This document shows positions 12,240-36,066 of a stretch of DNA of 64,000 bases, piece after piece. The position numbers and the translations under genes were made by a program. The notes beneath the pieces are model-generated. The model did no database searches and was not told the DNA's origin. It saw nothing but the letters and a program-made list of their open reading frames with translations. Source of the stretch: Belliella baltica DSM 15883 (GTDB taxonomy: Bacteria > Bacteroidota > Bacteroidia > Cytophagales > Cyclobacteriaceae); assembly GCF_000265405.1 (NCBI RefSeq), contig NC_018010.1:3493501-3557500 (forward strand). The letters run 5' to 3'. How positions within the stretch are numbered: position 1 is the stretch's first letter; the number at the start of each line of letters is the position of its first letter.

Positions 12240-12273
12240 CCAACTCTTTCCTTATTCATGCGGAAAGAGTTGG
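12240..12273. other. Intergenic hairpin between the NagB-LmbE gene and the ROK kinase gene
   Basis: A perfect 12-bp inverted repeat (CCAACTCTTTCC at 12240-12251 and its complement at 12262-12273) with a 10-nt loop sits 11 bp after the NagB-LmbE stop. On the + strand no T-run follows, so it is not a standard terminator. On the - strand the tail TTTTTATTGG follows, but no - strand gene is present. It may set 3' mRNA stability or partly separate the ROK gene. Confidence 0.5.
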
Positions 12274-12310
12274 CTTAAATCAATTCATCGATATAACTGA
12301 TCAATTATAA

Positions 12311-13159
12311 ATGGATATAAATCAACCCATTTTGGGTATTGACATAGGAGGAACTAATATAAAAGCTGGAATACTACGTAAAGGTGAATTATCCTCCATT
12401 AAAAGTTTCCCGACACCAGCTCTCGAGAATACAGAAACTATTTTCAAAAAAATTTTTGATTTAATCTCTACTTATTCTTCAGAAGAATTTCATGGCATTG
12501 GTATTGGAGTACCTGGATTAGTAGAGCTATCTACAGGTAAAATTTTATCTATAAATAATATTCCTTCATTGATAAATTCTAACCTGAAAAATTATCTGGA
12601 GACTCAAACCAACTTACCAGTGAAAATTAACAATGATGCAAATTGTTTTGTGATGGGGGCCTACAGGTTTGGGAATTTAAAACATTTGAACAACGTAGTT
12701 GGAATCTCTTTAGGCACAGGACTCGGAGCGGGAATCATCACCAATAAGAATCTTTACAGCGGTCTAAACGCTGCTGCCGGTGAATGGAGTGCAATCCCCT
12801 ATTTAGATAAAACTTTTGAAGATTACTGCAGCAGCAAATTTTTCTCCAAAGAATATAACCAAACTGCTGACAAACTCGCCCATCTAGCTACTAAAGGAGA
12901 GAATAATGCCATTGAAGCATTTCAACAATTTGGAATTCACCTAGCAGAATTAATCAAACATATCTTATACACCCTTTCTCCAGAAGGGATTATTCTTGGA
13001 GGGTCAATCAGCAAATCACATAATTTATTTTTAGATAGTCTTAAATGTAACCTTAAAAATTGTCTCTATCCTTCTTTGGTTGAGAATTTGACACTTCATA
13101 TTTCTGATATAAATGAACCAGGAATTATAGGAGCTGCATCTTTACATCACTGCAAATAG
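12311..13159 (+). CDS. ROK-family sugar kinase
   Basis: Cytoplasmic kinase that probably phosphorylates a hexose or N-acetylhexosamine at O6 with ATP. The 282 residues show the phosphate-1 motif GIDIGGTNIKAGI (about 8-20), NNDANCFVMGA, and GISLGTGLGAGII, all ROK/hexokinase-fold landmarks. The usual ROK zinc cluster (CxCGxxGCxE) is absent: the region after AAAGEWS contains only the isolated Cys in FEDYCSS, a variation seen in short ROK kinases. It follows the NagB-LmbE gene by 82 bp on the same strand, which suits an N-acetylglucosamine or N-acetylgalactosamine kinase feeding that enzyme. A transcriptional-repressor role is unlikely because no HTH domain precedes the kinase fold. Substrate is not determinable from the sequence. 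Confidence 0.88.
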   Translation: MDINQPILGIDIGGTNIKAGILRKGELSSIKSFPTPALENTETIFKKIFDLISTYSSEEFHGIGIGVPGLVELSTGKILSINNIPSLINSNLKNYLETQTNLPVKINNDANCFVMGAYRFGNLKHLNNVVGISLGTGLGAGIITNKNLYSGLNAAAGEWSAIPYLDKTFEDYCSSKFFSKEYNQTADKLAHLATKGENNAIEAFQQFGIHLAELIKHILYTLSPEGIILGGSISKSHNLFLDSLKCNLKNCLYPSLVENLTLHISDINEPGIIGAASLHHCK

Positions 13160-16657: not shown

Positions 16658-16670
16658 ATCAAAAAAAATC

Positions 16671-18308
16671 ATGAAAAAATTAAGCTATATATTTATAATT
16701 TCCCTTGGAATCTTTGCTATAGCGTCTTGTGATATAGACAAATCCCCTTATGATTCCATCACTTCTGATGATCTTGCTCAATCAGAAACGAGTGCCATGA
16801 TTGTGACTCTAGGTACTTACAGCAGAATGAAAGCTTGGACAGATAACTGGCACAGGCTTTTCGAATACCCTGGAGACAATGTCGCTTTGAGTGGTACTAC
16901 TTCAGATCCTTTGTTTTTTACTTATAATTACCAAAGAATCCCTAATGGAAGTAGAACTGCTGGATTCTGGAGAAGTTCGTATCAAATTGCAGTATCAGCG
17001 AATCAGGTAATCAGCAATGTGGCAGAAGGAAGTTCAGAAAGCAACGATCAAATCTTAGCTGAAAACTACTATATTAGAGCATTGATGCACTTTACGATGG
17101 TAAATATCTTTGGAAGACCTTACAATCAAGGAGTTAATAATCCAGGCGTTCCGTTAAAACTTGATGCAGAACCTTTGAATCATCCTACGAGATCTTCTGT
17201 AGGTGAAGTTTATGATCAAGTTGAAGCAGATTTGTTAAAGGCTGCATCCCTATTTACAGAGTCCAAATCGAATGTTTTTGCTTCAAAAGAAGCTACTTGG
17301 GCATTATTATCTAGACTGTACTTATACAAAGAAGATAATCAAAAGGCAATTGAATATGCTGACTTGGTATTGAATTCTGGTAGATTTTCTTTGGTTCCTA
17401 CTCAGACCTTGGGAGATTACCCTAAGCTATCACCAGAAAGTAATACCGAAACCATCTTTGCAGTAAAGTTTGTGAGGGATGTTGATTATGAGGCAAATGG
17501 TTGGTATACAATTGGATCGCTTTATGCCAATATACAAGGTGCAGGCTGGGGTGAAATGTATGCATCAAGACCATATTTGGAGCTAGTAAGAGAATTTCCT
17601 GAAGATCAAAGAAATAAATTCATTCAACCTGTAGTTGTTGACCAAAATGTGACTTGGGGTTTATTCGTAAGAAATAACCTAACTTATGGTTGGACTGAAT
17701 TGACGCCTCAAGGAGAAGACTTTGTATATACTCACGGTGGAACCACAAAATTGGTAGAAAAGGAATTTAATGAAAGAGGTGGTATAAGTTACCATATAGA
17801 CACAGACGAAGGTAAAAAGCAAATCTTAATCGATAAGAGACTTGATTTGAGAAACAACTTCCCTAAATACTTCATTTTGAAAAGTTCTGGACAGGAAGAT
17901 CAAGCTCACTTATGGTCTCCTGTGGTATCGAGGCTAGCAGAAATGTACCTTAACAAAGCAGAAGCACTTGCTAAACAAGGACAAAATGCAGAAGCGCTAG
18001 AACTCGTCAATGTGATTAGAACTAGAGCAGGTATTCCTCAAACTGGTCTTTACAACCTGGGTAATCTAGGTGGCAAAACAGTTCTTGACGTCGTATTGGA
18101 AGAAAGACAACTAGAGCTTTCTTGGGAAGGGCATAGAAAAATGGATGTGTTCAGAAATGGCAGAATGATGGATAGACGATATCCTGGAACCCATTTGGCT
18201 GGAAACAACCCACGACAAACTATTCTTGCCAATGAGAATGCTATCATAGAGTTTATACCAGAAGCTCAACTCCTTGTCCATGAAGGATTGACACAAAATC
18301 CATCATAA
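16671..18308 (+). CDS. SusD/RagB-family nutrient-binding outer-membrane lipoprotein
   Basis: Glycan-binding lipoprotein partner of the SusC just upstream. The 545 residues start with a lipoprotein signal with Cys20 in the lipobox (IASC), then helical repeats (NYYIRALMHFTMVNIFGRPY) and the C-terminal SusD landmarks RLAEMYLNKAEALAKQG and ERQLELSWEGHRKMDVFRNG. The length is normal. It ends 3 bp before a strong terminator hairpin, so SusC and SusD form one two-gene transcript, and the following lipoprotein needs its own promoter or read-through. Confidence 0.95.
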   Translation: MKKLSYIFIISLGIFAIASCDIDKSPYDSITSDDLAQSETSAMIVTLGTYSRMKAWTDNWHRLFEYPGDNVALSGTTSDPLFFTYNYQRIPNGSRTAGFWRSSYQIAVSANQVISNVAEGSSESNDQILAENYYIRALMHFTMVNIFGRPYNQGVNNPGVPLKLDAEPLNHPTRSSVGEVYDQVEADLLKAASLFTESKSNVFASKEATWALLSRLYLYKEDNQKAIEYADLVLNSGRFSLVPTQTLGDYPKLSPESNTETIFAVKFVRDVDYEANGWYTIGSLYANIQGAGWGEMYASRPYLELVREFPEDQRNKFIQPVVVDQNVTWGLFVRNNLTYGWTELTPQGEDFVYTHGGTTKLVEKEFNERGGISYHIDTDEGKKQILIDKRLDLRNNFPKYFILKSSGQEDQAHLWSPVVSRLAEMYLNKAEALAKQGQNAEALELVNVIRTRAGIPQTGLYNLGNLGGKTVLDVVLEERQLELSWEGHRKMDVFRNGRMMDRRYPGTHLAGNNPRQTILANENAIIEFIPEAQLLVHEGLTQNPS

Positions 18309-20640: not shown

Positions 20641-22050
20641 TTACACAATTACCTTTGTGGTTCCACCACCATTCAAAGTAATATCCAAAGGCTTATTGGT
20701 CTTCCATGAACCACCAGTAAAATCAGGAACATCAATGGAATTAGATCTATGGGCTACAGACCACTCACTCAATGGGGATAAGGCTGACCATAATGCTGCA
20801 TCATAAACATCCTGATCTAAGGGAAGGCCATTTCTCAAACAATCTATAAGTCTCCAATCCATCATAAAGTCCATACCACCATGTCCTCCAATCTGCTTGG
20901 CCAACTCCCCTACTTTCTTCACAATTTCTGGATTATATCTTTCCTGCAAAGCCTTCATTTCCTCTTCTTTAATCCACCCATGACCACTTGAAATCCTCTG
21001 AACAGGATACTTTTGAGCAAATGCCTTGGTACCACTCAAAGCATGTAACCTTGAATAAGGTCTTGGCGAAGTCACATCATGTTGCATCATCATCGACTTG
21101 CCATGCTTGGTTTTAATAATCGTGGTATTGATATTCCCACCAAACTTTTTTTCTACGAATGAAGCATAAAAATTATCCCTCTCTGCCAATTCTTTTGCTT
21201 TGTCTGCCATATGAAAATCAGCTGAAGATAAGGATGTCAAATAATCCATTTGGTCTCCCCTGTTGATATCCATCAGTTGACATATTGGACCTAGGCCATG
21301 TGTAGCATATAAATTACCATCTCTATAATTTTCTTTCAGCCTCCACATGTCTTCATAAGCATTCTTCGCAAAATTCAGATCTAAAAGGTCATGAATATAA
21401 GCACCTTCTCCATGAAGAATATCACCAAAGAATCCATCTCTAGCCATATTCAATGTCATCAATTCAAAGAAATCATAGCAACAATTCTCCAGCATCATAC
21501 AATGCTTCTGCGTTCTTTCAGAAGTCTCTACGAGTTGCCAGCATTCTTCTAATGTTTTGGCAGCAGGTACTTCTACGGCAGCATGCTTACCGGCCTCCAT
21601 AGCATAGACAGCCATTGGCGTATGCCAATCCCAAGGCGTCGCGATATAAATCAAATCCAAATCATCACGATCTACCATTTTCTTCCAGGCATACGCACTA
21701 CCGGAATATTTCTCTGGTTTGTGAGAAGTCTTTTCAAGTGATTTGGCGATTTTATCGACTTTTTCAGGCACTAGATCACAAATAGCGACAATTTCAACTC
21801 CTTGGATTTTGCTCATTCGATTCACTGCACCTGGCCCTCTCATTCCTAAACCTATAAAGCCTATTCTTACTTTATCTAATTTAGGAGCTGCAAAACCGCT
21901 CATATTGAAATGTTGGATCCTTTTTCTTTTAATCAGCTCGGGAAGCCGCTCCATTTCTTCAGTAGACTTAAAGCTACTCATCCCGGTACCGATCAAGCCC
22001 AAGCCTGCCAATCCGGAAAGCTTGAGAAATTCTCTTCTTTTATTGCTCAT
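20641..22050 (-). CDS. GH109-type alpha-N-acetylgalactosaminidase (Gfo/Idh/MocA fold, exported)
   Basis: Exported NAD-dependent glycosidase predicted to remove terminal alpha-GalNAc. The 469 residues start with a Tat-like signal (KRREFLKLSGLAGLGLIG), then a Rossmann domain with GFIGLGMRG (about 64-72), EVPAAKT (about 160-166) and the GH109 landmark HGLGPICQLMDINRG from His251. The C-terminal part carries GHGGMDFMMDWRLIDCLRNG, also typical of GH109. GH109 enzymes use bound NAD for an oxidation-elimination mechanism. The gene is last in a leftward operon of GalNAc catabolism, 17 bp after the amidohydrolase, which fits the substrate. An ordinary sugar oxidoreductase is the alternative, but the His-Gly-Leu-Gly-Pro segment argues for GH109. 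Confidence 0.87.
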   Translation of the reverse strand: MSNKRREFLKLSGLAGLGLIGTGMSSFKSTEEMERLPELIKRKRIQHFNMSGFAAPKLDKVRIGFIGLGMRGPGAVNRMSKIQGVEIVAICDLVPEKVDKIAKSLEKTSHKPEKYSGSAYAWKKMVDRDDLDLIYIATPWDWHTPMAVYAMEAGKHAAVEVPAAKTLEECWQLVETSERTQKHCMMLENCCYDFFELMTLNMARDGFFGDILHGEGAYIHDLLDLNFAKNAYEDMWRLKENYRDGNLYATHGLGPICQLMDINRGDQMDYLTSLSSADFHMADKAKELAERDNFYASFVEKKFGGNINTTIIKTKHGKSMMMQHDVTSPRPYSRLHALSGTKAFAQKYPVQRISSGHGWIKEEEMKALQERYNPEIVKKVGELAKQIGGHGGMDFMMDWRLIDCLRNGLPLDQDVYDAALWSALSPLSEWSVAHRSNSIDVPDFTGGSWKTNKPLDITLNGGGTTKVIV

Positions 22051-22067
22051 GGTTATTTATGGTTGTT

Positions 22068-23042
22068 TTAAAATTTATACATACTTTTTGCATTTTCAAC
22101 AAAAATCTTTCGAATCACTTCATCCGGAAGATCTAGTCCTTCAAATTCCCCTTCAAATTCAGGCGCATTCATCTTCTGATCAGTACCAAAATAGCTGAGG
22201 TGAAAATCCCATAATTCTTGAAATCGATCAGCATATTGAATATCAGTACTTACTCCATCATCAATTACATCTGAACCATAAATAATCCTGTCCTGATACT
22301 TGATGAAAAACTGACGAACTTGATCTCTATCATACATTCCTTGTCGCTGAACATGACAGATTCGTTCTGCTAAATCCGTGTGGAAATTTGGAAACTTTTC
22401 TAACCGCTTTCCTACTTCTTCCAAGCTCCATTCCATACTCCCCAAATGCGCTCCCACAAAAATGAGGTTTGGGTGCTTTGCAAGCATATTATCCCTTGCA
22501 TCAAGCTGATCTTGGTAGCTTGGAAAAGCCGGCAACTTATACATATGATACTCAGGATGAGCTGCAAAATATGCTCTATCTGAATCCACAGTCATCTCTT
22601 CTAGTGGTAGCCAGCAATTTCTGGGCTCTCCAATATGACCAAGTAGCGGCACACCTTGGGCAGCTAAGTAATCAAAAATAGGATCTAGCCTTTCATCATC
22701 CACCATTACAAATCTTCCTGAATCATCTCGAATCTCCATCCCAAAATTCTTCCAAATTTTGATGGCTACCGCTCCTTTGTCTAAGGTCCTTTTGATTTGA
22801 TCTAAAGCTTTGGTCACCCAAATCCCTGAACCAAAACCCGCTGACTCAAATGAACCAATATACCTGACTTGATCAGGATACTCTCTTTTCAAATCAAGCA
22901 CCACCGCCTCCTGCTGAGCAAGAGAATCGAAAAACGGAATATCCGTATTAATAGAAACAAATGCTGCACCTCGCTCCAAAGCTAATTTCATCTTAGCCTT
23001 GGAGCGGGTGTTTAAATGACAATGTGCATCAATAAGATTCAT
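22068..23042 (-). CDS. Amidohydrolase-family TIM-barrel hydrolase (candidate amino-sugar deacetylase)
   Basis: Cytoplasmic metal-dependent hydrolase of the amidohydrolase-2 type, 324 residues, no signal peptide. Likely metal ligands are the HxH in DAHCHLN (residues 5-11), LGHIGE, VGAHLGSMEW, and the late Asp in IYGSDVID. It lies between a GH109-type enzyme and a tagatose-bisphosphate-type aldolase, 1 bp after the aldolase stop. The pathway coded around it needs a GalNAc-6-P deacetylase and no classical AgaA/NagA gene is visible in this window, so this gene is the best positional candidate. Family members also decarboxylate or hydrolyse lactones, so the assignment is inference. Confidence 0.8.
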   Translation of the reverse strand: MNLIDAHCHLNTRSKAKMKLALERGAAFVSINTDIPFFDSLAQQEAVVLDLKREYPDQVRYIGSFESAGFGSGIWVTKALDQIKRTLDKGAVAIKIWKNFGMEIRDDSGRFVMVDDERLDPIFDYLAAQGVPLLGHIGEPRNCWLPLEEMTVDSDRAYFAAHPEYHMYKLPAFPSYQDQLDARDNMLAKHPNLIFVGAHLGSMEWSLEEVGKRLEKFPNFHTDLAERICHVQRQGMYDRDQVRQFFIKYQDRIIYGSDVIDDGVSTDIQYADRFQELWDFHLSYFGTDQKMNAPEFEGEFEGLDLPDEVIRKIFVENAKSMYKF

Positions 23043-23043
23043 C

Positions 23044-23868
23044 CTACCTGTTATTTACAATATCAAGTTTGCCTTTCACCAGTTCGGTTACAGCATTTGT
23101 TGCTTTTGGAAATACTTTTCTTAAATCTATTTCCTCGTTTTGGGTTAATATATCCTGAAGGGTCTTCATAAAGATATTCTTAATCTCCGTGGCCAAATTG
23201 ACCTTGCAGATTCCATATTGAATAGCGGCTCTTAATTGAGATTCTGGTACTCCTGAACTCCCGTGAAGCACAAATGTCGCAGAAGCAACTTCCGCTTCGA
23301 TTGACTTGAGGAGATCGATTTGAAGTTTGGGCTCTTCCTTGTAAAAACCATGGGCAGTCCCAATGGAAATAGCCAAAGCATCTACACCTGTTTCTTCTAC
23401 AAACTGCTTTGCTTCATGGGGCTGGGTAAACCCGTTATGGGCATGCGATTGTCCTAATTTGGCTACAAATCCTAATTCTGCTTCTACATGTGCTCCATAA
23501 GATTTTGCTCTCTGCACTACTTCTTGTGTAATCTTAACATTCTCTGAAAAAGGCAGCTCAGATCCGTCAATCATGACAGAATCAAAACCTGCATCCAAAC
23601 AACGCTGAGCTAATTCCACTGAACCACCGTGATCCAAGTGAATCCAACCTTCTACACCAAATTGCTTCAACCCTTCTCTTCCCATCGCTACAGCAGTATT
23701 CAGACCCATATAATCTATGGAACTCTGTGTCAACTGTAATATAATCGGATCTCCTGTTTGCTGAGCAGCTCTCAATACACCATGTAAAGTCTCTAAATTA
23801 TAATAATTAGTGGCCAATAACCCAGTCTTATGAGCAGACAAGTCTCTTAATTTATCTTTTAGCTTCAT
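23044..23868 (-). CDS. Class II ketose-bisphosphate aldolase, probably tagatose-1,6-bisphosphate aldolase
   Basis: Zinc-dependent aldolase expected to split tagatose-1,6-bisphosphate into dihydroxyacetone phosphate and glyceraldehyde-3-phosphate. The 274 residues have the class II landmarks NYYNLETLHGVLRAAQ, IHLDHGGS (metal His and catalytic Asp), AELGFVAKLGQ, FVLHGSSGVP (metal His) and ICKVNLATEI. Length and motifs fit the GatY/KbaY/AgaY group. It is 7 bp downstream of a PfkB kinase and 1 bp upstream of the amidohydrolase. Substrate specificity for tagatose rather than fructose bisphosphate is inferred from the adjacent AgaS and kinases. Confidence 0.9.
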   Translation of the reverse strand: MKLKDKLRDLSAHKTGLLATNYYNLETLHGVLRAAQQTGDPIILQLTQSSIDYMGLNTAVAMGREGLKQFGVEGWIHLDHGGSVELAQRCLDAGFDSVMIDGSELPFSENVKITQEVVQRAKSYGAHVEAELGFVAKLGQSHAHNGFTQPHEAKQFVEETGVDALAISIGTAHGFYKEEPKLQIDLLKSIEAEVASATFVLHGSSGVPESQLRAAIQYGICKVNLATEIKNIFMKTLQDILTQNEEIDLRKVFPKATNAVTELVKGKLDIVNNR

Positions 23869-23875
23869 AGGTTTG

Positions 23876-24820
23876 TCAAATCTTTACATTAAATATTTTC
23901 ATTGCTTTTTCGGATATATTTTTCCTATCTTCAAAGGCTCCTGTCCCTCCTGCAGCCGTGGTATTAAGCGCTCCTGTGAGGTTAGCAAACTGCAAGCATT
24001 CTTCTAAAGATTTTTCTTCAAGAAAAGAATGAATAAAACCAGCATTAAAGCTATCTCCTGCACCAATCGCGTCGACAAAATGTTCATGCTTAAATCCAAC
24101 AGCCTGAATTCGTTCACTTTTATTGATCAAAATACTTCCTTTTTGCCCCATCTTCACCGCAACCACATGAGCAAATGGCCTAAGTACCTCTAATGCATCT
24201 TCCACATTATTTTTACCGGTGAGCCCTTTAATTTCTGCTTCGTTTGGTAAAAAAATATCTACAAAGGGAAGACAAGCTTGAAAATCAAAATCAAACCTCC
24301 CTTCAGGATCTGTCTGTAAGTCCAAAGAAGTAGTCAACCCAGCAGCTTTCGCCTTTTTAAAGAGAGAAGAAATATCTTTTCTGATCTTAGGTTGCAAAAA
24401 AAGATTGGAGAAATGCAAATGATCAAATTGATCGATATGATCCCAAGGAATGTCATCAATCCCCAAATGTTCCATAGCCCCACAATATGTCACATTGGCT
24501 CTATCTTGACCATAATTAAGTACGAGGGTTAAACCCGTCTGATAAATCTTATCTTTTACCAAAAAATCAGTATGAACTCCTTTTTCCCTTAACCTATCAA
24601 AAACAAAATCCCCAAAATCATCTTGACCAATCTTTCCACAAAAACTAGTAGAAACACCTAATGCAGCAATATTAGAGGCGAAAATAGCAGAACTACTTCC
24701 AAGTGTAAGATTCATTTGAGAAGCTATGATTTCAGTTCCAACTTTCGGAAAGCCTCTGATATCATTAAGAATGAGATCCACATTTAACTCCCCAACGACC
24801 AAAAGTTTTTTATTTTGCAT
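23876..24820 (-). CDS. PfkB-family sugar kinase (ribokinase type; candidate GalNAc kinase)
   Basis: Cytoplasmic ATP-dependent kinase, 314 residues. Ribokinase-fold landmarks: GELNVDLILNDI near the start, SSAIFASNIAALG substrate-binding stretch, and DAIGAGDSFNAGFIHSF with the catalytic Asp of the GxGD anion hole. It overlaps the upstream kinase gene by 11 bp, so the two are translationally coupled. Two different PfkB kinases in one GalNAc operon suggest one for the amino sugar itself and one for tagatose-6-P. This ribokinase-like one is the better candidate for the first step, but the ROK kinase at 12311 competes for that role. Confidence 0.88.
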   Translation of the reverse strand: MQNKKLLVVGELNVDLILNDIRGFPKVGTEIIASQMNLTLGSSSAIFASNIAALGVSTSFCGKIGQDDFGDFVFDRLREKGVHTDFLVKDKIYQTGLTLVLNYGQDRANVTYCGAMEHLGIDDIPWDHIDQFDHLHFSNLFLQPKIRKDISSLFKKAKAAGLTTSLDLQTDPEGRFDFDFQACLPFVDIFLPNEAEIKGLTGKNNVEDALEVLRPFAHVVAVKMGQKGSILINKSERIQAVGFKHEHFVDAIGAGDSFNAGFIHSFLEEKSLEECLQFANLTGALNTTAAGGTGAFEDRKNISEKAMKIFNVKI

Positions 24821-25718
24821 AATTCACTTCCTTGATTTCAATTTCGGATAAAAGGTTATCCACATCTTTTTTATAAAGCATTCCCAGTTCATGTCTAAGA
24901 CAGTTGGCAGCACCAAAAGCTACAGCATATCGAGCGTGCTCTTTCATATCAGTATTCTTTAGCAAACTATATCCTAAACCAGCAGTGAGGCAATCCCCAC
25001 TTCCAACAGTACTTATTACTTTACTTAAGACAACTTTACCTTCTACAATTTTATCAGATGATAGCAATTCAAGACCATCTTTTCCCTTAGTCAATGCAAG
25101 TATCGAAACTGATTCCAACAATTTTGGAAACGTCATTTTGGTTTCTTGAAATTCTGATTCATTGAGGTGTAAGGCTGTAACTTTTTCTTGTAGCGCATTT
25201 TTGAGCTGAACACCAGTACAGTCCAAAATCACATCTACATGATGCTGATTGCAAAGCCTTACAAGTTCCTGACAGGCATTTTCTGGACTATCAGCTGGCC
25301 AAGAACCGGAAATTATAACCTGTGATACTGACTTGATTTTATCAGCAAATATCTTTTTAAAAGCCTCAAAACTTTCCCTGCCCATCCTTGGCCCTGGCTC
25401 CAATAACTCGGTATGATCCCAGGATTTTTCTTCAGTGATGAAAGTATAGCATTTTCGAGTATTTCCCTTTAAATCTACCCCTGAAGTTTCTACCCCTAAT
25501 TTATTGCAAGCTGATTGAACCCATTCCCCATGTGTTCCTGCCCAAAAACCCATCAACTCAACAGCCATTCCCATCTCCTTCAAGGCTAAGGCAACATGAA
25601 CCCCTTTGCCACCAGGATATTCAGTCAGATGTTGAATCCTATTGCTTGTAGCAGGCTTAAAAGTTGATAAATGTGCATAGACATCAATAGCTGGATTGGG
25701 ACAGACTGCTAGTATCAT
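24810..25718 (-). CDS. 1-phosphofructokinase/tagatose-6-phosphate kinase-like PfkB kinase
   Basis: Kinase of 302 residues similar to FruK/LacC/AgaF, which phosphorylate fructose-1-P or tagatose-6-P to the bisphosphate. Landmarks: AVCPNPAIDVYAHLSTF at the N-terminus (the NPAxD signature of this subgroup), PGGKGVHVALALKEMG, and STVGSGDCLTAGLGYS with catalytic Asp. Its ATG overlaps the AgaS stop as TAATG, so translation is coupled. Between AgaS, which makes tagatose-6-P, and the aldolase, which uses tagatose-1,6-P2, this is the expected tagatose-6-P kinase. Activity on fructose-6-P or fructose-1-P is possible. Confidence 0.9.
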   Translation of the reverse strand: MILAVCPNPAIDVYAHLSTFKPATSNRIQHLTEYPGGKGVHVALALKEMGMAVELMGFWAGTHGEWVQSACNKLGVETSGVDLKGNTRKCYTFITEEKSWDHTELLEPGPRMGRESFEAFKKIFADKIKSVSQVIISGSWPADSPENACQELVRLCNQHHVDVILDCTGVQLKNALQEKVTALHLNESEFQETKMTFPKLLESVSILALTKGKDGLELLSSDKIVEGKVVLSKVISTVGSGDCLTAGLGYSLLKNTDMKEHARYAVAFGAANCLRHELGMLYKKDVDNLLSEIEIKEVNYAK

Positions 25719-26893
25719 TATACTTTTTTATAAATTTTTACCCCCTGGACTACTCTAGAAATTGCACCACTTACAGACGGGTTATCTGGCTGTAAACCCA
25801 ATTCAAGACTTTTATAAAATCCCATCAGTTGACCAATCAACGTACCTGTCAACATTCTAAAATCTCCAGCAGGACAGTTTTCAGATCTTGGAGCAATATT
25901 TATCAGAGGTCTGAAATCATCTTCATACCAGCCACCAAAACTAATGATCGGAATCTTTCTTAAATCATCAGCAATACTAATAGCTAGATCTCTTTCATAT
26001 TGATAAACATGCGATTCACTTGAGAAAAGAAATACGATCAGGGACTTCTCATTCAATACCGCTCTTGGACCATGCCGGAAACCCAAGAAAGAATCATGCT
26101 TGCAGATTACCTTCCCATCTGTTAGCTCCTGAAGTTTCAAATGACACTCTCTTGCAATGCCTAACATAGGCCCAGAACCTAAAAAAATTACTCTCTCAAA
26201 ATTCTTCGAACTCAACGAAATAAAGTCATCAAGATGCTCTGCAATAATTGCATCTGCAATCTCGGAAACACTTAATACCTGTTCACCAATTTCTGACAAT
26301 TTTGCTAGATTACTAACAAGCAATACTGATAAAAGCATAGAAGTAAAACTTCCAGTCATGGCAAGACTTTTATCATTAGCATTTTCAGGCAACTGCAAGC
26401 AATAAGAACGCTTTTTATTCCGTTTGGCATAGCCGGCTAGCTGCCCTTCTTCATTACAGGTTATAATGAGATGATAAATTTCCGATACATTCTCATCTGC
26501 TAACAAGACAGTTTCTACACTTTCAGGACTATTGCCTGACCGTGCAAATGACACCATCAAAGTTGGTGTTTGCTTCTGAAAAGTGAGCTCAGGGTGGGTT
26601 ACAATATCGGTAGTGGCGATTGCTTGAGTAAGTCTTCCAGTATTTCTTTGTACAATTCCCTGTGCAGATTCTCCTATAAAGGCAGAAGAACCAGCACCTG
26701 TCAAAATTATCCTTAAATCAGGCTTTTCAATTAAGGGATAGAGAAATGCTGCTAAATCATTTTTCTGAGAAGCGATCAGTGCCAACACATCTAGCCAAAG
26801 TCTTGGCTGTTGCACAATCTCTCGTGCTGTATTTTCCGCACCTGCATTGACAGCTGACTGCTTTTCAAGGTTCAAATAGGTGGTTAATATCAT
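25718..26893 (-). CDS. agaS: Galactosamine-6-phosphate deaminase/isomerase AgaS
   Basis: Cytoplasmic SIS-domain enzyme converting galactosamine-6-P to tagatose-6-P and ammonia. The 391 residues carry two SIS domains: the first with LTGAGSSAFIGESAQGI (about 64-80) and VSFARSGNSPESVETV (about 125-140), the second with FLGSGPMLGIARECHLK and DSFLGFRHGPRAVL (about 235-290), which is characteristic of AgaS. Length is the usual 380-390. It is the clearest evidence that this operon is for GalNAc/galactosamine. It lies 4 bp after the SSS transporter and is coupled to the following kinase by a one-base overlap. Confidence 0.93.
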   Translation of the reverse strand: MILTTYLNLEKQSAVNAGAENTAREIVQQPRLWLDVLALIASQKNDLAAFLYPLIEKPDLRIILTGAGSSAFIGESAQGIVQRNTGRLTQAIATTDIVTHPELTFQKQTPTLMVSFARSGNSPESVETVLLADENVSEIYHLIITCNEEGQLAGYAKRNKKRSYCLQLPENANDKSLAMTGSFTSMLLSVLLVSNLAKLSEIGEQVLSVSEIADAIIAEHLDDFISLSSKNFERVIFLGSGPMLGIARECHLKLQELTDGKVICKHDSFLGFRHGPRAVLNEKSLIVFLFSSESHVYQYERDLAISIADDLRKIPIISFGGWYEDDFRPLINIAPRSENCPAGDFRMLTGTLIGQLMGFYKSLELGLQPDNPSVSGAISRVVQGVKIYKKV

Positions 26894-26897
26894 ATTT

Positions 26898-28676
26898 TTA
26901 TTCTTTATTATCTATCAATTTATACATTAAGGCAAAGGCTATGACCGAACAAAAAAGTATCCATCCACCTGCTTCATAACTTTTCAAAACAAGCTTTCCT
27001 ATTGCGATCAATAAGCCAAATATGGCAATCACCCCAAGACCAAATGATAAGAGTGCTTTCTGAAAACCAAAGTAATTTTGATCACTCTCCGCTGTTTCAC
27101 TATTTTTCATTTGACTTCTGACACTCTCCCAACCTTTGCCAGGAACTTTTGTAACATTTAGAAATTTAATCAGAACCGCAGTATCTGTTGGCTTGGTCAA
27201 ATATGACACTACTATCCAAGAAACAGTAGTGATCAAAACACCAATCACAAGCTCCTCATGAGTCTGTAAGGCTTCAAAGTAATGCTGATGTACAAATGCA
27301 AAATATAAGGCAATTGCAAAAGAAACAATCATCGCTGTAAGCTCACTGGCGGCATTGATTCTCCACCAATACCATCTCAAAATATATAAAAGACCAGTAC
27401 CTGCTCCTATTTGAAGTAAAATGCTGAAACTTTGCAACGCATTCTCTAACTTAAGAGCCATAAAACCTCCCAATAGCATGATCAAAACTGTTGCTAAACG
27501 ACCTACATTAACCAAAGTCTTCTGAGAACTTTCTGGGTTGATAAACCTTTTATAAAAATCATTGACCACATAAGATGCTCCCCAGTTGAGATGGGTAGAA
27601 AGGGTTGACATATAAGCAGCCACCAAGGATGTGACAACCAAGCCCATTAAACCAACAGGTAGAAATGAAAGCATCGCAGGATATGCTATATCATCCTTAA
27701 TTATTTGCGGGGAAGTATTTGGAAATGCAATCTGAATATCATCTAAAGTAGGAAAAACTACGATAGAAGCCAATGCCACAATAATCCAAGGCCATGGACG
27801 AATAGCATAATGCACAATATTGAAAAGTAGAACAGAACTAAATGCATGCTTTTCATTTTTAGCTGCCAGCATCCTTTGAACTACATACCCCCCTCCACCA
27901 GGTTCTGCACCAGGATACCAAACTGACCACCATTGAATAAACAAGGGGATAAAAAATATAATGACAGCAGCCTCCATATTCCCAAAATCAGGAAGTATAT
28001 TCAATTTAGAACTTACCTCAGGATGACTTAACAGTTTATCCATACTTCCAATCGCTGGATGGGATACAGCCACATAGGCAGCAGCAATAGCTCCTCCTAA
28101 AGAAAGTCCAAACTGTAAAAAATCTGTCAACACCACTCCACGTAAACCTCCTAGCGAACTATAAATCACTGTAACCACGCCAGCAATCAAAAGTGTTTGC
28201 AATGGACTAATTCCTAATAAAACCCCTCCAATCTTAATCGCTGCAAGGGAAACAGAAGCAATGATAACTACATTGAAAAAAACACCTAAATAAATCGCAC
28301 GAAATCCTCTCAAAAATGCAGCTAGCTTTCCGCTATAGCGCATTTCATAAAATTCTATATCGGTAAGAACACCAGACCTTTTCCAAAGCTTTGCAAAGAA
28401 AAATACCGTCAACATCCCCGTCAACAAAAAACTCCACCAAACCCAATTACCGGCTACCCCATTGGTCCTTACAATATCCGTTACCAAATTTGGAGTGTCT
28501 GTAGAGAAAGTAGTTGCAACCATCGATATCCCTAATAGCCACCATGACATACTGCCTCCTGCATTGAAATACTCCTCTTGGCTCTTAGATGCTTTCTTTG
28601 CTGTATAGAGCCCTATTCCCAGAGATATTACAAAAAAGCCTATGAGTATAATCCAATCAATTTCTTGTAGCAGCAT
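26898..28676 (-). CDS. Sodium:solute symporter (SSS/SLC5 family), probable GalNAc uptake
   Basis: Inner-membrane sodium-coupled sugar transporter, 592 residues with about 14 hydrophobic segments. SSS landmarks include SQEEYFNAGGSMSWWLLG after helix 1, STDTPNLVTDIVR, GGLRGVVLTDFLQFGLSL and SFLPVGLMGLVVTSLVAAYMS. It is the first gene of a leftward operon that runs transporter, AgaS, kinase, kinase, aldolase, amidohydrolase, GH109. Context points to import of free GalNAc (or another hexosamine) from the periplasm after GH20 and GH109 action. The specific solute cannot be read from the sequence. Confidence 0.92.
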   Translation of the reverse strand: MLLQEIDWIILIGFFVISLGIGLYTAKKASKSQEEYFNAGGSMSWWLLGISMVATTFSTDTPNLVTDIVRTNGVAGNWVWWSFLLTGMLTVFFFAKLWKRSGVLTDIEFYEMRYSGKLAAFLRGFRAIYLGVFFNVVIIASVSLAAIKIGGVLLGISPLQTLLIAGVVTVIYSSLGGLRGVVLTDFLQFGLSLGGAIAAAYVAVSHPAIGSMDKLLSHPEVSSKLNILPDFGNMEAAVIIFFIPLFIQWWSVWYPGAEPGGGGYVVQRMLAAKNEKHAFSSVLLFNIVHYAIRPWPWIIVALASIVVFPTLDDIQIAFPNTSPQIIKDDIAYPAMLSFLPVGLMGLVVTSLVAAYMSTLSTHLNWGASYVVNDFYKRFINPESSQKTLVNVGRLATVLIMLLGGFMALKLENALQSFSILLQIGAGTGLLYILRWYWWRINAASELTAMIVSFAIALYFAFVHQHYFEALQTHEELVIGVLITTVSWIVVSYLTKPTDTAVLIKFLNVTKVPGKGWESVRSQMKNSETAESDQNYFGFQKALLSFGLGVIAIFGLLIAIGKLVLKSYEAGGWILFCSVIAFALMYKLIDNKE

Positions 28677-29001
28677 TGTATCTTGAAATTTTTACTTTTT
28701 TAATTCAACAGAACTCCGAATCACTATTAATTCAATAGATAGCTAAATTAAAGAGACTTAGCTTAGAGGAGTTTCGGTTTTTTGATTTCCTAATTACCAT
28801 TCTATTTTTTCCAGACTATTAACCTTTTTTAGTAAGCTATCGGAATATTTCGAAATATAAAAACTTTCATTATTATATAAAACGAAAATAAATTAATTTT
28901 CATTTTATTTTTAAATTTTCTCACTTTGATTTCAGAATTTCTGATTCGTTTGTATTAAAAAAATTTAGCAAACAGAACGCATCAGCTACACTAAGACAAA
29001 A
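28677..29001. other. AT-rich promoter region of the leftward GalNAc operon
   Basis: About 325 bp between the SSS transporter start and the terminator behind GH20. It must hold the operon promoter on the minus strand. I see only an imperfect TAnnTTTG match on the minus strand and no clear operator-like repeat. Confidence 0.5.
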
Positions 29002-29037
29002 AAATACCATGATAAATCATAATTTATCATGGTATTT
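29002..29037 (-). terminator. Rho-independent terminator behind GH20
   Basis: Perfect 16-bp stem (29002-29017 with 29022-29037), loop CATA. On the minus strand a T-run follows (complement of the A-run at 28999-29004 and upstream). It closes the transcript sulfatase-SUMF1-oxidoreductase-isomerase-GH20, 22 bp after the GH20 stop. Confidence 0.92.
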
Positions 29038-29058
29038 AAGGCTTGAATAGTCAAATTT

Positions 29059-30966
29059 TTACTCAACATCTACAGTATACATACCACTTTCTCTATTTGA
29101 AGGTGTCACAATAATATACCTCAATTTCAATGGCTCTTGCCCTTCCCCATTCACCGGCATGAAAAAAGGCCCTCTGTAAAGATGGGCTGTTCTATCAGCC
29201 TTATGTCCATCGAAAGTGTAATAAATCTTACTCCCAGCAACACTACTATGGAGCTTGACCTCTTTCTTTCCATCTTTAAGGGTAACTTCTACAAGAGCTT
29301 CTGGAATTCTAAAGTTGATTTTTTGCTGATCGAGTTCGGCCAACTGCTTTGGCATTCTAACTTTAGCGAAGTTGCTGAAATCTTTTTCCTCTTGAGGCAT
29401 CCAGGCCACTTCTGATAAAGCAAGTAGCCTAGGGAAAATCATATATTGCATCTTTTCAAATGATGGAACATACTCTGTCCACATATTTGCTTGTACTCCT
29501 AAAATATGCTTTTGCTGATCTTGAGTCAGATCCATTGGTCTTGGATGATAGCTATAGACCTTTTCCAATGGCAAATAGCAACAAATAAACAAAGGTTCAT
29601 CGGCTTGCTTTCCCTGACCATGGTCAATGTACATATGACTATTAGGAGTCATGATAACATCATGTCCCATCTTGGCCGCTGCAATCCCTCCTGCTTCACC
29701 TCTCCAACTCATCACTGTTGCATTTGGTGCTAGACCTCCTTCGAGAATTTCATCCCATCCGATTAAGTTTCTTCCATTTTTATTCAGAAATTTTTCAATT
29801 CTTTTGATAAAGTAACTCTGTAACTCGTGTTCATCCTTAAGCTTATTTTTCTTGATCACACTTTGAGCTATCTCCGATGTTTTCCAATGATCCTTAGGAA
29901 CTTCATCTCCACCAATATGAATATATTCACTTGGAAAAATCTCCATCACCTCTGTCAAAACATCTTCAAGAAATTTAAAAGTTTCTTCTTTGGGACCGAA
30001 AATATTATAATGAATCCCCCAGTATCCTGGAACAAATGTAGATATTTCATTATTTAATGAATTTCCATTTTCACGCTTTGCCTCAATCAATCCTTTGATA
30101 GGAACACCATTGACAACATCAAAACTTCCAAATTCTGGATATGCAGCTAAGACCGCAGAACTATGTCCTGGAAGCTCGATTTCAGGAATGACAGTGATCT
30201 TTCTTTCAGCTGCATAGCGTACTAGTTCTCTGGCTTCATCTTGAGTATAAAAACCACCATGCTTAATGCCATCATAAATAAATGGCTTGTAATTGCCATA
30301 TTGACCAATAATAGTAGAATCCCTCCAGGCAGCTACTTGTGTTAGTTTGGGGTACTTTTTGATTTCTAATCTCCAACCTTGATCGTCAGTAAGATGCCAA
30401 TGAAGCTTATTTAATTTGAAATGTGCCATCAAATCGACTACCTGTTTCATTTCTTCCAAAGTTCTAAAATGCCTGCTGACATCAATCATCAAACCTCTGT
30501 AGCCAAACTCTGGCTTATCTTTGATCTCTACAACAGGAATATGCAATTCATTTCCCTTTGGCTCAATAAGCTGAATCAGAGTCTGAAAAGCATAAAAAAT
30601 TCCAGCATCACCCCCTTTAATCTCAATCTGATTATTTTTTACAGAAAGATGATAGGCCTCTTCCTCCATGTCAGAATCGTGACTAACTTTTATTTTAGTA
30701 TAATCCTGAGCTTGAGCAGAAATATAGGTCCTTATTCCAAACCTCTTGTTGATATAAGAATTGAATAGCATAGCAGAACCTCTCTGCGAATCATTCTTGG
30801 CAAATAGTTGCACCTTATCTTGTAAGATAAATGAACCTGAACCTAATTCTACTTCTTTTGGATAAGGCACTAAAGCAAGTTCTTTGGGAATTTGTGCATT
30901 AACTAAATGACTGCTTAGCAATACTAAAGTAAGGCAGATTAGCTTTATAAATTTAATTGAATTCAT
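29059..30966 (-). CDS. GH20 beta-N-acetylhexosaminidase
   Basis: Exported exo-hexosaminidase releasing beta-linked GlcNAc or GalNAc by substrate-assisted catalysis. The 635 residues have a signal peptide (about 1-24, ending LVNAQ), a GH20b-type N-terminal domain (about 30-150), and the GH20 barrel with GYRGLMIDVSRHF, KLHWHLTDDQGWR and the catalytic pair Asp354-Glu355 in HIGGDEVPKDHW. VMSWRGEAGG and a C-terminal beta-rich domain follow (about 545-635). It is the last gene of its transcript, 14 bp after the isomerase-like gene. With a GH109-type enzyme next door, beta-GalNAc is a reasonable substrate. Confidence 0.95.
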   Translation of the reverse strand: MNSIKFIKLICLTLVLLSSHLVNAQIPKELALVPYPKEVELGSGSFILQDKVQLFAKNDSQRGSAMLFNSYINKRFGIRTYISAQAQDYTKIKVSHDSDMEEEAYHLSVKNNQIEIKGGDAGIFYAFQTLIQLIEPKGNELHIPVVEIKDKPEFGYRGLMIDVSRHFRTLEEMKQVVDLMAHFKLNKLHWHLTDDQGWRLEIKKYPKLTQVAAWRDSTIIGQYGNYKPFIYDGIKHGGFYTQDEARELVRYAAERKITVIPEIELPGHSSAVLAAYPEFGSFDVVNGVPIKGLIEAKRENGNSLNNEISTFVPGYWGIHYNIFGPKEETFKFLEDVLTEVMEIFPSEYIHIGGDEVPKDHWKTSEIAQSVIKKNKLKDEHELQSYFIKRIEKFLNKNGRNLIGWDEILEGGLAPNATVMSWRGEAGGIAAAKMGHDVIMTPNSHMYIDHGQGKQADEPLFICCYLPLEKVYSYHPRPMDLTQDQQKHILGVQANMWTEYVPSFEKMQYMIFPRLLALSEVAWMPQEEKDFSNFAKVRMPKQLAELDQQKINFRIPEALVEVTLKDGKKEVKLHSSVAGSKIYYTFDGHKADRTAHLYRGPFFMPVNGEGQEPLKLRYIIVTPSNRESGMYTVDVE

Positions 30967-30980
30967 AGTTTTCTACGTTA

Positions 30981-31889
30981 TTATTTGAATTTATCTGAAT
31001 CTATGTAAGATTGAATAAGTCTTTTTTCGCCTTCTATTCCTCCTAAAGAAAGACCATGTTCCATTCCTACAATTCCATCATATCCTTTTTCATAAAGAAA
31101 TTTAAATAAGTTTAAGTAATTGATTTCACCAGTTCCTGGCTCTTTTCTACCGGGGTTATCTCCCACTTGGATGTAGGCAATTTCACTCCAACATTTATCA
31201 ATATTCGCCAAAAGATTTCCCTCGTTTCTTTGCATATGATAGGCATCATAAAGGATTTTACAAGCTGGGCTTCCGACAGCCTTACATATAGAATATGTCT
31301 GATCAGAAAATCTTAGAAACAAATCTGGTGTATCACTCAAAGGCTCTAAAACCATGGTAAGACCATGAGGCTCGAATATGTCTGAGGCTTTTTTAAGTGT
31401 TTCAATAACATTGGCGGTTTGAATTCCAAGAGGAAGGTTTCTTTCATAAAATCCGGGAACTACTGTCATCCATTTAGCTCCAGTTCTTTTAGCTACTTCC
31501 ACAGCTTTTTCACAAGTACTTAGAAAATTATCCGAAAACTCCTGCTTTCCTGTTGTCAGAGATTTCTTCCAATTATCTCCTCCATCGATCACAAAAACCC
31601 CCATTTTCATACCTCGGCGCTCTAAAGCTTTGGCTATTTTATTCTGATCCTCGATTGATCTTCCCATCATGCCATTGTCCTCAAGGGCTTTGAAACCCTG
31701 ATCGGCCATATATTCAATCTGAGCAATAAGATCTTTGCCAGCGGATTGATTAAACATTCCAAAATGCGGGGCATAGTTTAGGTTAAAAGTATGGTCTTTT
31801 CTATAACCATTCGCATTGCTGAGAAATGGAAATAGAGCTGAGAATGCAGTTGCTAAACTCGCCTTTTCTATAAACTTTCTTCTTTCCAT
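30981..31889 (-). CDS. Exported xylose-isomerase-like TIM-barrel protein (hydroxypyruvate isomerase-like)
   Basis: Sugar phosphate isomerase/epimerase-fold protein of 302 residues. The N-terminus MERRKFIEKASLATAFSALF looks like a Tat signal, so it is probably periplasmic. Barrel landmarks: GFKALEDNGMM, VLEPLSDTPD (metal Glu), KILYDAYHMQRNEGN (metal Asp/His), YIQVGDNPGR and GIVGMEHGL (metal Glu). It is 3 bp after the Gfo/Idh/MocA oxidoreductase, and the two Tat-type proteins recur together in Bacteroidota sugar loci. A joint oxidation-isomerisation of a sugar in the periplasm is inference; true hydroxypyruvate isomerase activity is unlikely for an exported protein. Confidence 0.85.
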   Translation of the reverse strand: MERRKFIEKASLATAFSALFPFLSNANGYRKDHTFNLNYAPHFGMFNQSAGKDLIAQIEYMADQGFKALEDNGMMGRSIEDQNKIAKALERRGMKMGVFVIDGGDNWKKSLTTGKQEFSDNFLSTCEKAVEVAKRTGAKWMTVVPGFYERNLPLGIQTANVIETLKKASDIFEPHGLTMVLEPLSDTPDLFLRFSDQTYSICKAVGSPACKILYDAYHMQRNEGNLLANIDKCWSEIAYIQVGDNPGRKEPGTGEINYLNLFKFLYEKGYDGIVGMEHGLSLGGIEGEKRLIQSYIDSDKFK

Positions 31890-31892
31890 AGC

Positions 31893-33197
31893 TTAAATCA
31901 CTTTAGTTTTCCCCGGTACAGCAAATGGATAATAACCTTCATCATTTGGCAATACTTTAGGATTAGCAGACCAATCCAAAGATTCTGGCATAAGACTTAT
32001 TTCAGAATGCAAAGCGTCTTCCCAAGTGACCGCCTTTCCTGAGTAAGTAGCATTCCTTCCCAAAATCGCAGTCATCGTACTTTTGGCTGCATGTTCTGCA
32101 TCTTGGTATTTGAACTCTCCGTCAACAATTGCCTTGAAAAGCAAATCATGTTCTTTTTGATACGGGTTTTTATTTCCCTTTCCATCATGATTAAAAAGCT
32201 CATTCCCTTTTCTATCCCAAAGTTGGCCTTTGTTTCCAGCATTCAAATAGGCTCTTCCATCTGTACCTTGAAAAGTTTCATCCACCCTATTGTGTGCGCC
32301 TGGAAAATGCCTGCACTCTCCTAAAATCACTGTTCCATCTGCATAGGTATAGGTTACTGAATGATGATCAAATATTTCTCCATATTCTTTTCCATTCCGA
32401 ATAAACCTTCCTCCTGTCCCTTCAGCTTTGATAGGGTAAGCACCTTTCACCCAATTCACCACATCCAAATTATGAACATGCTGTTCCACAATATGATCTC
32501 CACATAGCCAATTGAAGTAATACCAATTTCTCATTTGATACTCCATTTCAGTCATGCCAGCTTCTCTTTGTTTTACCCATACTCCTCCATCATTCCAATA
32601 AACCTGACCAGAAACAATATCTCCTATAGCCCCATCATGAATCCTTTTGATGGTTTCTACATAGCTGTCTTGATATCTTCTTTGAAGCCCTACGACTACA
32701 TTTAATTTTTTCTCTCTTGCTTCTTTTGCAGCATTGAGTACTTTTCTTATACCAACAGCATCTGTTGCCACTGGTTTTTCCATAAACACCTGCTTATTTT
32801 GTCTGATAGCTTCTTCAAAATGATCAGGTCTAAAACCAGGAGGTGCAGCTAAAATGACAACATCTGCTTCTTTGATAGCATCCTTATAAGCATCAAAACC
32901 TACGAATTTTTTATCTTCGCTTACTTCTACTTTATCTTTTCCATATTTTTCGAATATTGGCTTATAGCTACTTTCTAAGCGATCTCGAAAAGCATCTGCC
33001 ATTGCCACAAGTTTAATATTATATCCTGTTTCAAAAGCTTGAAAAACAGCTCCAGTACCCCTGCCGCCACAGCCAATCAGAGCTATTTTTATAGTATCAT
33101 CACCTTGAGCAAATGCTTTTGGCAGCGAAAAGGGACTAATAATAGCTCCACCAGCAATCAATGCTGATGTCTTGATAAAGTTTCTTCTTCGGTTCAT
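31893..33197 (-). CDS. Tat-exported Gfo/Idh/MocA-family oxidoreductase
   Basis: NAD(P)-dependent sugar oxidoreductase-fold protein, 434 residues. Twin-arginine signal MNRRRNFIKTSALIAGGAII with cleavage near AFAQ (about 30). Rossmann motif IALIGCGGRGTGAV, EKPVATDA (about 140-147, the EKP motif of the family) and a C-terminal alpha/beta domain with NWYYFNWLCGDHIVEQHVH. It lacks the HGLGP segment of the GH109-like gene at 20641, so it is a different subfamily. It stands between the SUMF1-like and the isomerase-like genes. Its role may be redox tailoring of a released sugar in the periplasm; substrate unknown. Confidence 0.88.
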   Translation of the reverse strand: MNRRRNFIKTSALIAGGAIISPFSLPKAFAQGDDTIKIALIGCGGRGTGAVFQAFETGYNIKLVAMADAFRDRLESSYKPIFEKYGKDKVEVSEDKKFVGFDAYKDAIKEADVVILAAPPGFRPDHFEEAIRQNKQVFMEKPVATDAVGIRKVLNAAKEAREKKLNVVVGLQRRYQDSYVETIKRIHDGAIGDIVSGQVYWNDGGVWVKQREAGMTEMEYQMRNWYYFNWLCGDHIVEQHVHNLDVVNWVKGAYPIKAEGTGGRFIRNGKEYGEIFDHHSVTYTYADGTVILGECRHFPGAHNRVDETFQGTDGRAYLNAGNKGQLWDRKGNELFNHDGKGNKNPYQKEHDLLFKAIVDGEFKYQDAEHAAKSTMTAILGRNATYSGKAVTWEDALHSEISLMPESLDWSANPKVLPNDEGYYPFAVPGKTKVI

Positions 33198-35865: not shown

Positions 35866-36066
35866 TTTTAAGATAATTTTTAAATAAAATCCCAATATAA
35901 TTAAACACATCATTCAATGACAATGAATTGAAATTTTTTTTTCTTACAAATGAAAGATAATGAAACAAAAATAAATATTTAAAATAGCATTGAATAATTT
36001 AACCCTGAATGAACGTGATATTAATTGACAATCGGCATCATCTTTGAATTTCATTTCCAAAAAGTA

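Follow-up and report, generated by a model that had tools for sequence, protein, structure and literature searches.

Which enzyme removes the acetyl group when a member of the Bacteroidota degrades N-acetylgalactosamine (GalNAc) by a pathway of the Aga type? GalNAc is one of the main sugars of glycans, mucins and chondroitin among them, and the question is raised by a seven-gene operon of Belliella baltica DSM 15883, at positions 20641-28676 (minus strand) of the stretch analysed here. This stretch, called the window throughout, comprises 64,000 nucleotides (3493501-3557500 of contig NC_018010.1) of a genome that consists of one contig of 4,196,595 bases and is 99.98% complete. An original prediction, made from the sequence without database searches, described the operon as a complete, SusCD-linked GalNAc pathway through tagatose 6-phosphate (tagatose-6-P). 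The predicted pathway, through galactosamine 6-phosphate (GalN-6-P) and tagatose-6-P and with a link to SusCD, is supported at the sequence level by a gene order that is conserved, by genes that replace one another and never occur together, and by an AgaR gene with AgaR-like half-sites in the leaders of the operon and of SusC. "Complete" was an overstatement: no deacetylase of the NagA/AgaA family was found, and the amidohydrolase of the operon, here called AmiH, comes from a different family, PF04909. We consider that AmiH is probably the deacetylase of the pathway, whichever of GalNAc and GalNAc 6-phosphate (GalNAc-6-P) is its substrate.

All seven tightly spaced open reading frames (ORFs) of the original prediction were recovered intact, with the families and ends it had given. 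In downstream order, they are:

26898-28676, minus strand: SSS-family sodium/solute symporter (PF00474, 108 bits; TIGR00813, E = 4.5e-41, below cut-off)
25718-26893, minus strand: AgaS homologue, full-length, with a SIS domain (TIGR02815, E = 6.7e-110)
24810-25718, minus strand: LacC/1-PFK-type PfkB kinase (TIGR03168, 196.5 bits, cut-off 216.4; lacC model TIGR01231, 135 bits, below cut-off)
23876-24820, minus strand: PfkB2, a ribokinase-like PfkB kinase (PF00294, 183 bits)
23044-23868, minus strand: class II aldolase (PF01116, 286 bits)
22068-23042, minus strand: AmiH, a PF04909 amidohydrolase without visible signal peptide (78 bits, cut-off 26.4)
20641-22050, minus strand: GH109, alpha-N-acetylgalactosaminidase type (PF01408 and PF21252 over cut-off, PF21252 with 135 bits)

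Because the gaps between these genes are 17, 1, 7, -11, -1 and 4 bp, the set is likely to be a single transcription unit. A terminator-like hairpin (28998-29037, minus strand; -17.3 kcal/mol, z = -6.4) followed by a T-run lies between the operon and the GH20 gene upstream, and is predicted to separate the two. The symporter is a candidate for the uptake of GalNAc or galactosamine (GalN). The AgaS homologue scores 300 bits against PDB 3odp and shares 145 identities over 391 residues with AgaS of E. coli K-12; at 367.6 bits it stays below the curated cut-off of TIGR02815 (529.2) and is a homologue rather than a member of that family, with a predicted role as GalN-6-P deaminase/isomerase. The LacC-like kinase (GSGD at residue 239) is a putative tagatose-6-P kinase, and PfkB2 (GAGD at 253) a putative GalNAc or GalN kinase. 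The aldolase, which scores 156 bits against PDB 1gvf (AgaY) and has 102 identities in 274 residues with E. coli KbaY, would act on tagatose-1,6-bisphosphate; for this step and for the tagatose-6-P kinase, family homologues are present and the specific models score below cut-off. GH109 matches PDB 6t2b (338 bits) and 2ixa (239 bits), and its N-terminus, judged by eye, has the appearance of an exported protein.

The genome-wide search for agaA or nagA that the original prediction had proposed returned, as best hit of the NagA model, a partial match with E = 2.5e-6, and nothing over the cut-off or at E<=1e-20. The model works in this group, as it finds NagA in related genomes (261.8 bits in genome G218, for example), and ten hand-picked genomes, one of which is G218 again as the source of locus L082, gave NagA at E<=1e-20 in six and none in four. 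We then used AgaS as the query in 392 genomes of the phylum, which made the test independent of AmiH, and found AgaS in 22. Of these 22, 17 lack a NagA match at E<=1e-20, and so do 14 of the 18 genomes in which AgaS and AmiH are adjacent. Near AgaS itself, no homologue of E. coli NagA above 60 bits was detected within 8 kb in any of 49 loci, as far as their sequence reaches. AmiH has no match to the NagA/AgaA family model (TIGR00221) or to any NCBIfam model at 1e-5. Such single-model negatives, the NagA one included, are not absolute, since the PF01182 genome search for NagB was negative and yet the NCBIfam scan revealed a NagB-like half in the protein encoded at 9901-12228. One of the two enzymes, AgaA or NagA, is enough for E. 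coli, which fails to grow on GalNAc when both genes are mutated (PMC3668189); with NagA unmatched in most AgaS genomes, another enzyme must perform the deacetylation in most of them if they use GalNAc. Three AgaS genomes (G067, G337 and G431) have neither a NagA match nor an adjacent close AmiH, and may use galactosamine only or yet another enzyme. As a separate observation, two AmiH loci, L067 and L070, also hold a NagA homologue (34% identical to E. coli NagA over 378 residues in L070), and their AmiH proteins have signal-like N-termini.

AmiH is the candidate that tracks AgaS. In the AgaS-based search, 18 of the 22 genomes have an AmiH gene no more than 6 kb from AgaS. Within Belliella it is present in all five genomes with AgaS and in none of the three without. 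Across 59 relatives, the six that carry AgaS all carry AmiH at E<=1e-50 (on another contig in G021); eight further genomes have AmiH at this threshold without AgaS, so AmiH-like genes also do other work. AmiH was flagged in 17 of the 20 loci L107-L126, a count that falls to 16 of 20 because L121 holds a far paralogue with a signal-like N-terminus.

A search that started from AmiH gave 159 relatives, the best 80 of which were taken as loci L027-L106, where AmiH is present by construction; in the sequence available, AgaS accompanies it in 28 of these 80 and is not seen in the other 52, some loci ending at contig ends. The order AgaS-LacC-PfkB2-aldolase-AmiH is kept in Belliella, Echinicola, Salegentibacter, Galbibacter and others, and recurs across Cyclobacteriaceae, Flavobacteriaceae and Balneolaceae, with an EamA gene inserted ahead of AmiH in the otherwise unchanged order of Fodinibius (L060). 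Loci of this order often also carry GH109, SusC/SusD and a DeoR-type gene. Because the order recurs in other families, the operon arrangement is beyond chance.

A different protein in the same locus might do the deacetylation, namely the PIG-L domain of a NagB-PIG-L fusion (9901-12228), with AmiH doing something else. PIG-L proteins include amino-sugar deacetylases, the HHDD stretch of the fusion, which we take to be its metal site, is intact, and the fusion occurs in six of eight Belliella genomes and in G328. Its distribution does not follow AgaS, however: the fusion is present in the Belliella genomes G004 and G006, which are without AgaS, has no match in the AgaS-bearing G007, and, of the 14 genomes that lack a NagA match and have AgaS next to AmiH, goes unmatched at E<=1e-20 in eight, in a search that covered the fusion and not other PIG-L proteins. 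As neither NagA nor the fusion matches in those eight genomes, AmiH is the only deacetylase candidate found there, and we regard the PIG-L domain as an improbable alternative.

Replacements within the operon bear on the two kinases. We counted genes within 8 kb of AgaS in 49 loci, which represent 48 places (L109 and L082 are the same contig) and only 20 of which have at least 7 kb on both sides. LacC is near AgaS in 28 loci and AgaZ (GatZ/KbaZ-like, PF08013) in 12; none has both and nine have neither. PfkB2 is present in 43 and a BadF-type kinase (PF01869) in three, again never together, with three loci lacking both. A role as tagatose-6-P kinase has been suggested for AgaZ (PMC12118421), and the mutual exclusion of LacC with AgaZ and of PfkB2 with BadF supports the LacC-like protein for the phosphorylation of tagatose-6-P and PfkB2 for that of the hexosamine, an assignment that rests on slot replacement, not on likeness to assayed GalNAc kinases. 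Transporters interchange more loosely (SSS in 19 loci, EamA in 14, some with both), and 30 of the 49 loci have a GH109 homologue. Fisher figures, like the shuffle figures given below, were computed without correction for relatedness.

In AmiH itself, H7, H9, K95, H136, H199 and D258 are invariant in 62 sequences (the window AmiH and those of 61 of the 80 loci), and all of these except K95 are candidate metal-site residues; a long conserved stretch surrounds residues 136-184. By sequence AmiH has no relative among solved structures, only three chance-level matches. Its AlphaFold2 model (mean predicted local distance difference test score 94.9) has fold neighbours of the PF04909 fold that include lactonases and decarboxylases; NagA is not among the 50 fold matches listed, which says nothing on kinship. 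The AgaS-linked AmiH proteins were also tried as a single clade, and this failed.

These fold neighbours bring in a further explanation, that galactosamine alone, or some other amino sugar, is the substrate of the operon, AmiH being a lactonase or similar enzyme for the same glycan; AgaS without AgaA has indeed been read as galactosamine-only use in a gut-genome survey (PMC5583593). GH109 and GH20 at this locus, and GH36-like enzymes in relatives, point instead to glycans that contain N-acetylhexosamine, a lactone does not arise at any step of the pathway, and a deacetylase is exactly the step that is lacking. We judge this explanation to be unlikely, and return to AmiH as the probable deacetylase in considering its substrate.

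The original prediction placed phosphorylation before deacetylation, an order that the AmiH homologues make doubtful. Many of these have a predicted export signal and one is joined to a glycosidase, so the acetyl group may be removed from free GalNAc before any phosphorylation. Homologues that are 43-46% identical to AmiH, including the fused one, have predicted export signals. By a simple N-terminal hydrophobicity rule, which is not a signal-peptide predictor and for which two rows without the motif were dropped, 43 of 48 AgaS-linked AmiH proteins have no signal, as do 16 of 55 unlinked ones, the other 39 of the 55 having one. The rule counts the protein of locus L056 as unexported, as its signal precedes the fused GH36 part. 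This protein, from one Woeseiaceae metagenome-assembled genome (MAG), is a single ORF of 1072 residues with a melibiase-type GH36 domain, lipoprotein-like at its N-terminus when judged by eye, followed by AmiH, and it adjoins EamA, AgaZ, AgaS, BadF and AgaR-like genes. Two other Pseudomonadota loci, L078 and L091, have an AgaS-linked AmiH with a signal-like N-terminus. In all three genomes, two of which are MAGs, this AmiH is the only one at E<=1e-20.

Sugar phosphates are not expected outside the cytoplasm, and exported AmiH should for that reason act on an unphosphorylated sugar. Thirty invariant residues are common to exported and unexported forms, which favours free GalNAc as the substrate in the unexported branch too. 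A bolder reading, which we hold to be somewhat less likely than not, is that AmiH stands for a class of GalNAc N-deacetylases not recognised before, with free GalNAc as substrate, extracytoplasmic in Pseudomonadota and cytoplasmic in Bacteroidota and Balneolota. If so, it would define a pathway that deacetylates first and then phosphorylates, in which PfkB2 or a BadF-type protein would be a galactosamine kinase.

Weighing against deacetylation first, E226, V210, I260, T33 and F38 separate the unexported linked AmiH proteins from the exported forms, so a change of substrate in the unexported ones is possible; residue 226 is Glu in 95% of 41 unexported linked proteins and Ala in 33 of 41 exported ones, in a comparison with hand-set groups from which seven far paralogues and L056 were dropped and unlinked unexported rows left out. 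E226, V210 and I260 also occur in the far AmiH forms of L115, L116 and L123.

The canonical order would keep AmiH as the deacetylase, and so shares part of our preferred explanation, with PfkB2 (or the ROK kinase) making GalNAc-6-P and AmiH, as a functional copy of AgaA, deacetylating it. AgaS requires GalN-6-P, and phosphorylation comes first in the known pathway (PMC12118421); AgaS-linked AmiH of the Bacteroidota mostly has no signal peptide, and the acidic residue 226 with V210 and I260 could reflect a different substrate. Yet no new basic residue marks the unexported proteins, their 30 invariant residues are shared with exported forms that are not expected to meet a sugar phosphate, and each of the three Pseudomonadota genomes with these AgaS loci yielded a single AmiH, which either has a predicted export signal itself or is joined to a protein that has one. 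We hold this alternative, taken as a whole, to be somewhat unlikely; provided that AmiH is the deacetylase, deacetylation before phosphorylation comes slightly ahead of the canonical order.

Exported AmiH proteins may have a role of their own on N-acetylhexosamine glycans. Four loci of about 20 kb each (L080, L081, L101 and L103) have an AmiH with a signal-like N-terminus beside SusC and GH20, with no AgaS in the available sequence; L080 and L081 additionally carry a GH36-like and an AgaR-like gene. For the protein of L080 that is homologous to the GH36 domain fused in L056, the nearest solved structures are an alpha-galactosidase (8x1b, 225 bits) and a blood-group A galactosaminidase (9awt, 221 bits).

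Control of the operon probably lies with AgaR. The genome encodes this regulator about 54 kb from the operon, at genome positions 3459329-3460084 (NF040755, 265 bits, cut-off 260), and the protein is 78% identical to the AgaR that adjoins the AgaS operon of G328. All 38 members of the DeoR-type cluster of the loci match E. coli AgaR by BLAST, and the one member scanned, from L080 (a locus without AgaS), scores 280 bits against the AgaR cut-off of 260. Taking the half-site core to be that of the E. coli AgaR work, we found 44 cores in 46 leaders (45 AgaS leaders and that of the window symporter), compared with a mean of 7.6 and a maximum of 16 in 200 shuffles drawn as first-order Markov samples, with the caveat that leaders of related species are not independent; 27 of the 46 leaders have at least one core. 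In the E. coli aga stretch, all nine matches fall in the two aga leaders. The window has 32 matches, and those of the operon leader are located as follows:

28677-29058, minus strand: operon leader (382 bp), with two AgaR-like half-sites, at 28880 and 28898

The 573-bp SusC leader contains three, at 13172, 13316 and 13523, and four other intergenic matches lie at 34-39 kb of the window. The half-sites appear to tie SusCD to the operon better than distance alone does. A Bacteroidota promoter pattern gave four matches in the window against 4.5 expected, and none in the operon leader.

From the computed gene content, conserved order, lack of a NagA match, exclusive replacements and half-site enrichment we infer the catalytic activities, the step order and the regulation. 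The seven-gene unit would be the cytoplasmic end of a GalNAc-glycan utilisation locus, in which GH109 (alpha linkages) and GH20 (beta linkages), with a sulfatase nearby, would release GalNAc outside the inner membrane and the SSS symporter would import it. AmiH would then take off the acetyl group in the place of NagA/AgaA, PfkB2 would add the 6-phosphate, and AgaS would convert GalN-6-P to tagatose-6-P and ammonia. The LacC-like kinase would form tagatose-1,6-bisphosphate, which the class II aldolase would cleave to dihydroxyacetone phosphate and glyceraldehyde 3-phosphate, and the distantly encoded AgaR would control both the operon and the SusCD genes. As originally predicted, a symporter and PfkB kinases appear to stand at this locus in place of a phosphotransferase system (PTS); the ORFs of 1363-35913, the part of the genome scanned for PTS domains, contained none.

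Compared with the E. coli Aga pathway (AgaA/NagA, KbaY/KbaZ, PTS), the locus shares homologues of AgaS and of the class II aldolase, the AgaR regulator and its half-sites, and tagatose-1,6-bisphosphate as predicted product. It differs in having no AgaA/NagA that we could find, the symporter and PfkB kinases for the PTS, a LacC-like kinase for KbaZ/AgaZ, and the link to SusCD. Judged by its genes, the pathway would work like Aga and departs from it in a feature that defines it, the AgaA/NagA deacetylase. The Aga system of Shewanella (AgaP permease, AgaK kinase, AgaAII, AgaS) is likewise non-PTS, with permease, kinase and outer-membrane transporter (PMC2996990); it lists agaAII as the deacetylase, whereas here a PF04909 protein would fill that slot, a comparison made by description rather than sequence.

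Within the Bacteroidota, the polysaccharide utilisation locus BT4240-50 of B. thetaiotaomicron, the only GalNAc route studied by experiment there that came to our notice, shares SusCD, a GH109 that frees GalNAc and a cytoplasmic kinase (PMC11992087). That kinase is of the APH family and acts at O1, shown for GlcNAc (N-acetylglucosamine) and inferred for GalNAc, with GalNAc-1-phosphate as the apparent product, and AgaS, tagatose and "deacetyl" do not occur in the main text of the paper (PMC11992087). Both kinases of our operon are PfkB proteins; five matches to PF01636 in the B. baltica genome are candidates for an APH-family kinase. The operon looks like a second GalNAc route in Bacteroidota, beside that of B. 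thetaiotaomicron. Searches of open-access literature brought up no AgaS or tagatose route for GalNAc in Bacteroidota, and no PF04909 sugar deacetylase.

Flavonifractor is said to use a pair of a GalNAc deacetylase and a galactosaminidase for blood-group A, the deacetylase being of another fold. The GH36-like enzyme beside or fused to AmiH in relatives resembles the galactosaminidase 9awt about as much as the alpha-galactosidase 8x1b; in contrast, the window has GH109 rather than a GH36-like enzyme. With the PF04909/COG3618 amidohydrolases (LigI, LigJ, ACMSD and decarboxylases), AmiH shares the Pfam family and the TIM-barrel fold, and it differs from them in having no sequence relative among solved structures and in its conserved stretch at about 136-184. 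A survey of human-gut genomes, which took agaA as the crucial mark of the Aga pathway, reports it from Actinobacteria, Firmicutes and Proteobacteria alone (PMC5583593). Our results suggest a different form of Aga in environmental Bacteroidota and Balneolota, which annotation based on agaA would miss or would call galactosamine-only, and they point to what may be a new family of deacetylases, to two kinases of interest and to steps that may run in another order.

The following genes of the surrounding locus complete the picture:

29059-30966, minus strand: GH20 beta-N-acetylhexosaminidase, in the upstream unit (PF00728, 394 bits)
34453-35913, minus strand: sulfatase (PF00884, 199 bits; best PDB matches 7an1, 310 bits, and 7ana, 274 bits)
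13733-16657, plus strand: SusC-like receptor (PF07715, PF13715)
16671-18308, plus strand: SusD-like lipoprotein (PF07980, 90.6 bits)
4780-9051, plus strand: hybrid two-component sensor/AraC-type regulator of the locus (Reg_prop, HisKA, HATPase_c, Response_reg, HTH_18)
9901-12228, plus strand: NagB-PIG-L fusion protein (PRK02122, 196 bits, and nagB, 95.8 bits, both below cut-offs; PIG-L, 23.8 bits, cut-off 28.2)
12311-13159, plus strand: ROK-family sugar kinase (PF00480, 161 bits; TIGR00744, 141.7 bits, and NagK model, 95.6 bits, below cut-offs)

The SusC/SusD pair (13733-18308) is convergent to the operon, an arrangement shared by loci L027-L030. Upstream past GH20 follow a TIM-barrel isomerase-like protein, a Gfo/Idh protein, an FGE-type protein and the sulfatase; the first two, at 30981-33197, include a Gfo/Idh protein weakly like the BT_2158-family glycoside 3-dehydrogenases.

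The plus-strand genes comprise the two-component regulator, a creatininase-family protein, the NagB-PIG-L fusion, the ROK kinase, SusC, SusD and a DUF3472 protein. At 9081-13159, behind the regulator, the creatininase-family protein, fusion and ROK kinase are consecutive, a row that looks like a GlcNAc branch, and this branch may unite its deaminase and deacetylase in one protein in a genome without a real NagA match. The ROK kinase, which the original prediction had named among the kinases to consider for GalNAc, was set aside as a GalNAc kinase: the window and L029 are the only places where it was seen close to AgaS, with flanks ending at 10 kb, and it sits with the fusion, more like a part of the GlcNAc branch. 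Its substrate is probably GlcNAc or another hexose.

Just before the window (L133:2537-19899, genome positions of about 3.473-3.490 Mb) lie genes for a GH20-like protein, a sulfatase, a sialic-acid-specific esterase domain, an N-acylglucosamine 2-epimerase, a cytidylyltransferase, a BNR-repeat protein and an SSS-like piece. This may be a sialoglycan-type locus, and because it adjoins the GalNAc locus, the target may be sialylated, sulfated glycans of glycoproteins. In the flanks of the operon, a DDE transposase (38344-39891) and an IS21-type pair of IstB and transposase (49243-51558) were seen, and a tRNA-Ser(GCT) followed by a tyrosine integrase (45278-46954) marks a possible integration site. 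A separate polysaccharide locus with GH43, GH2, GH5-like and SusD genes occupies 51777-61714.

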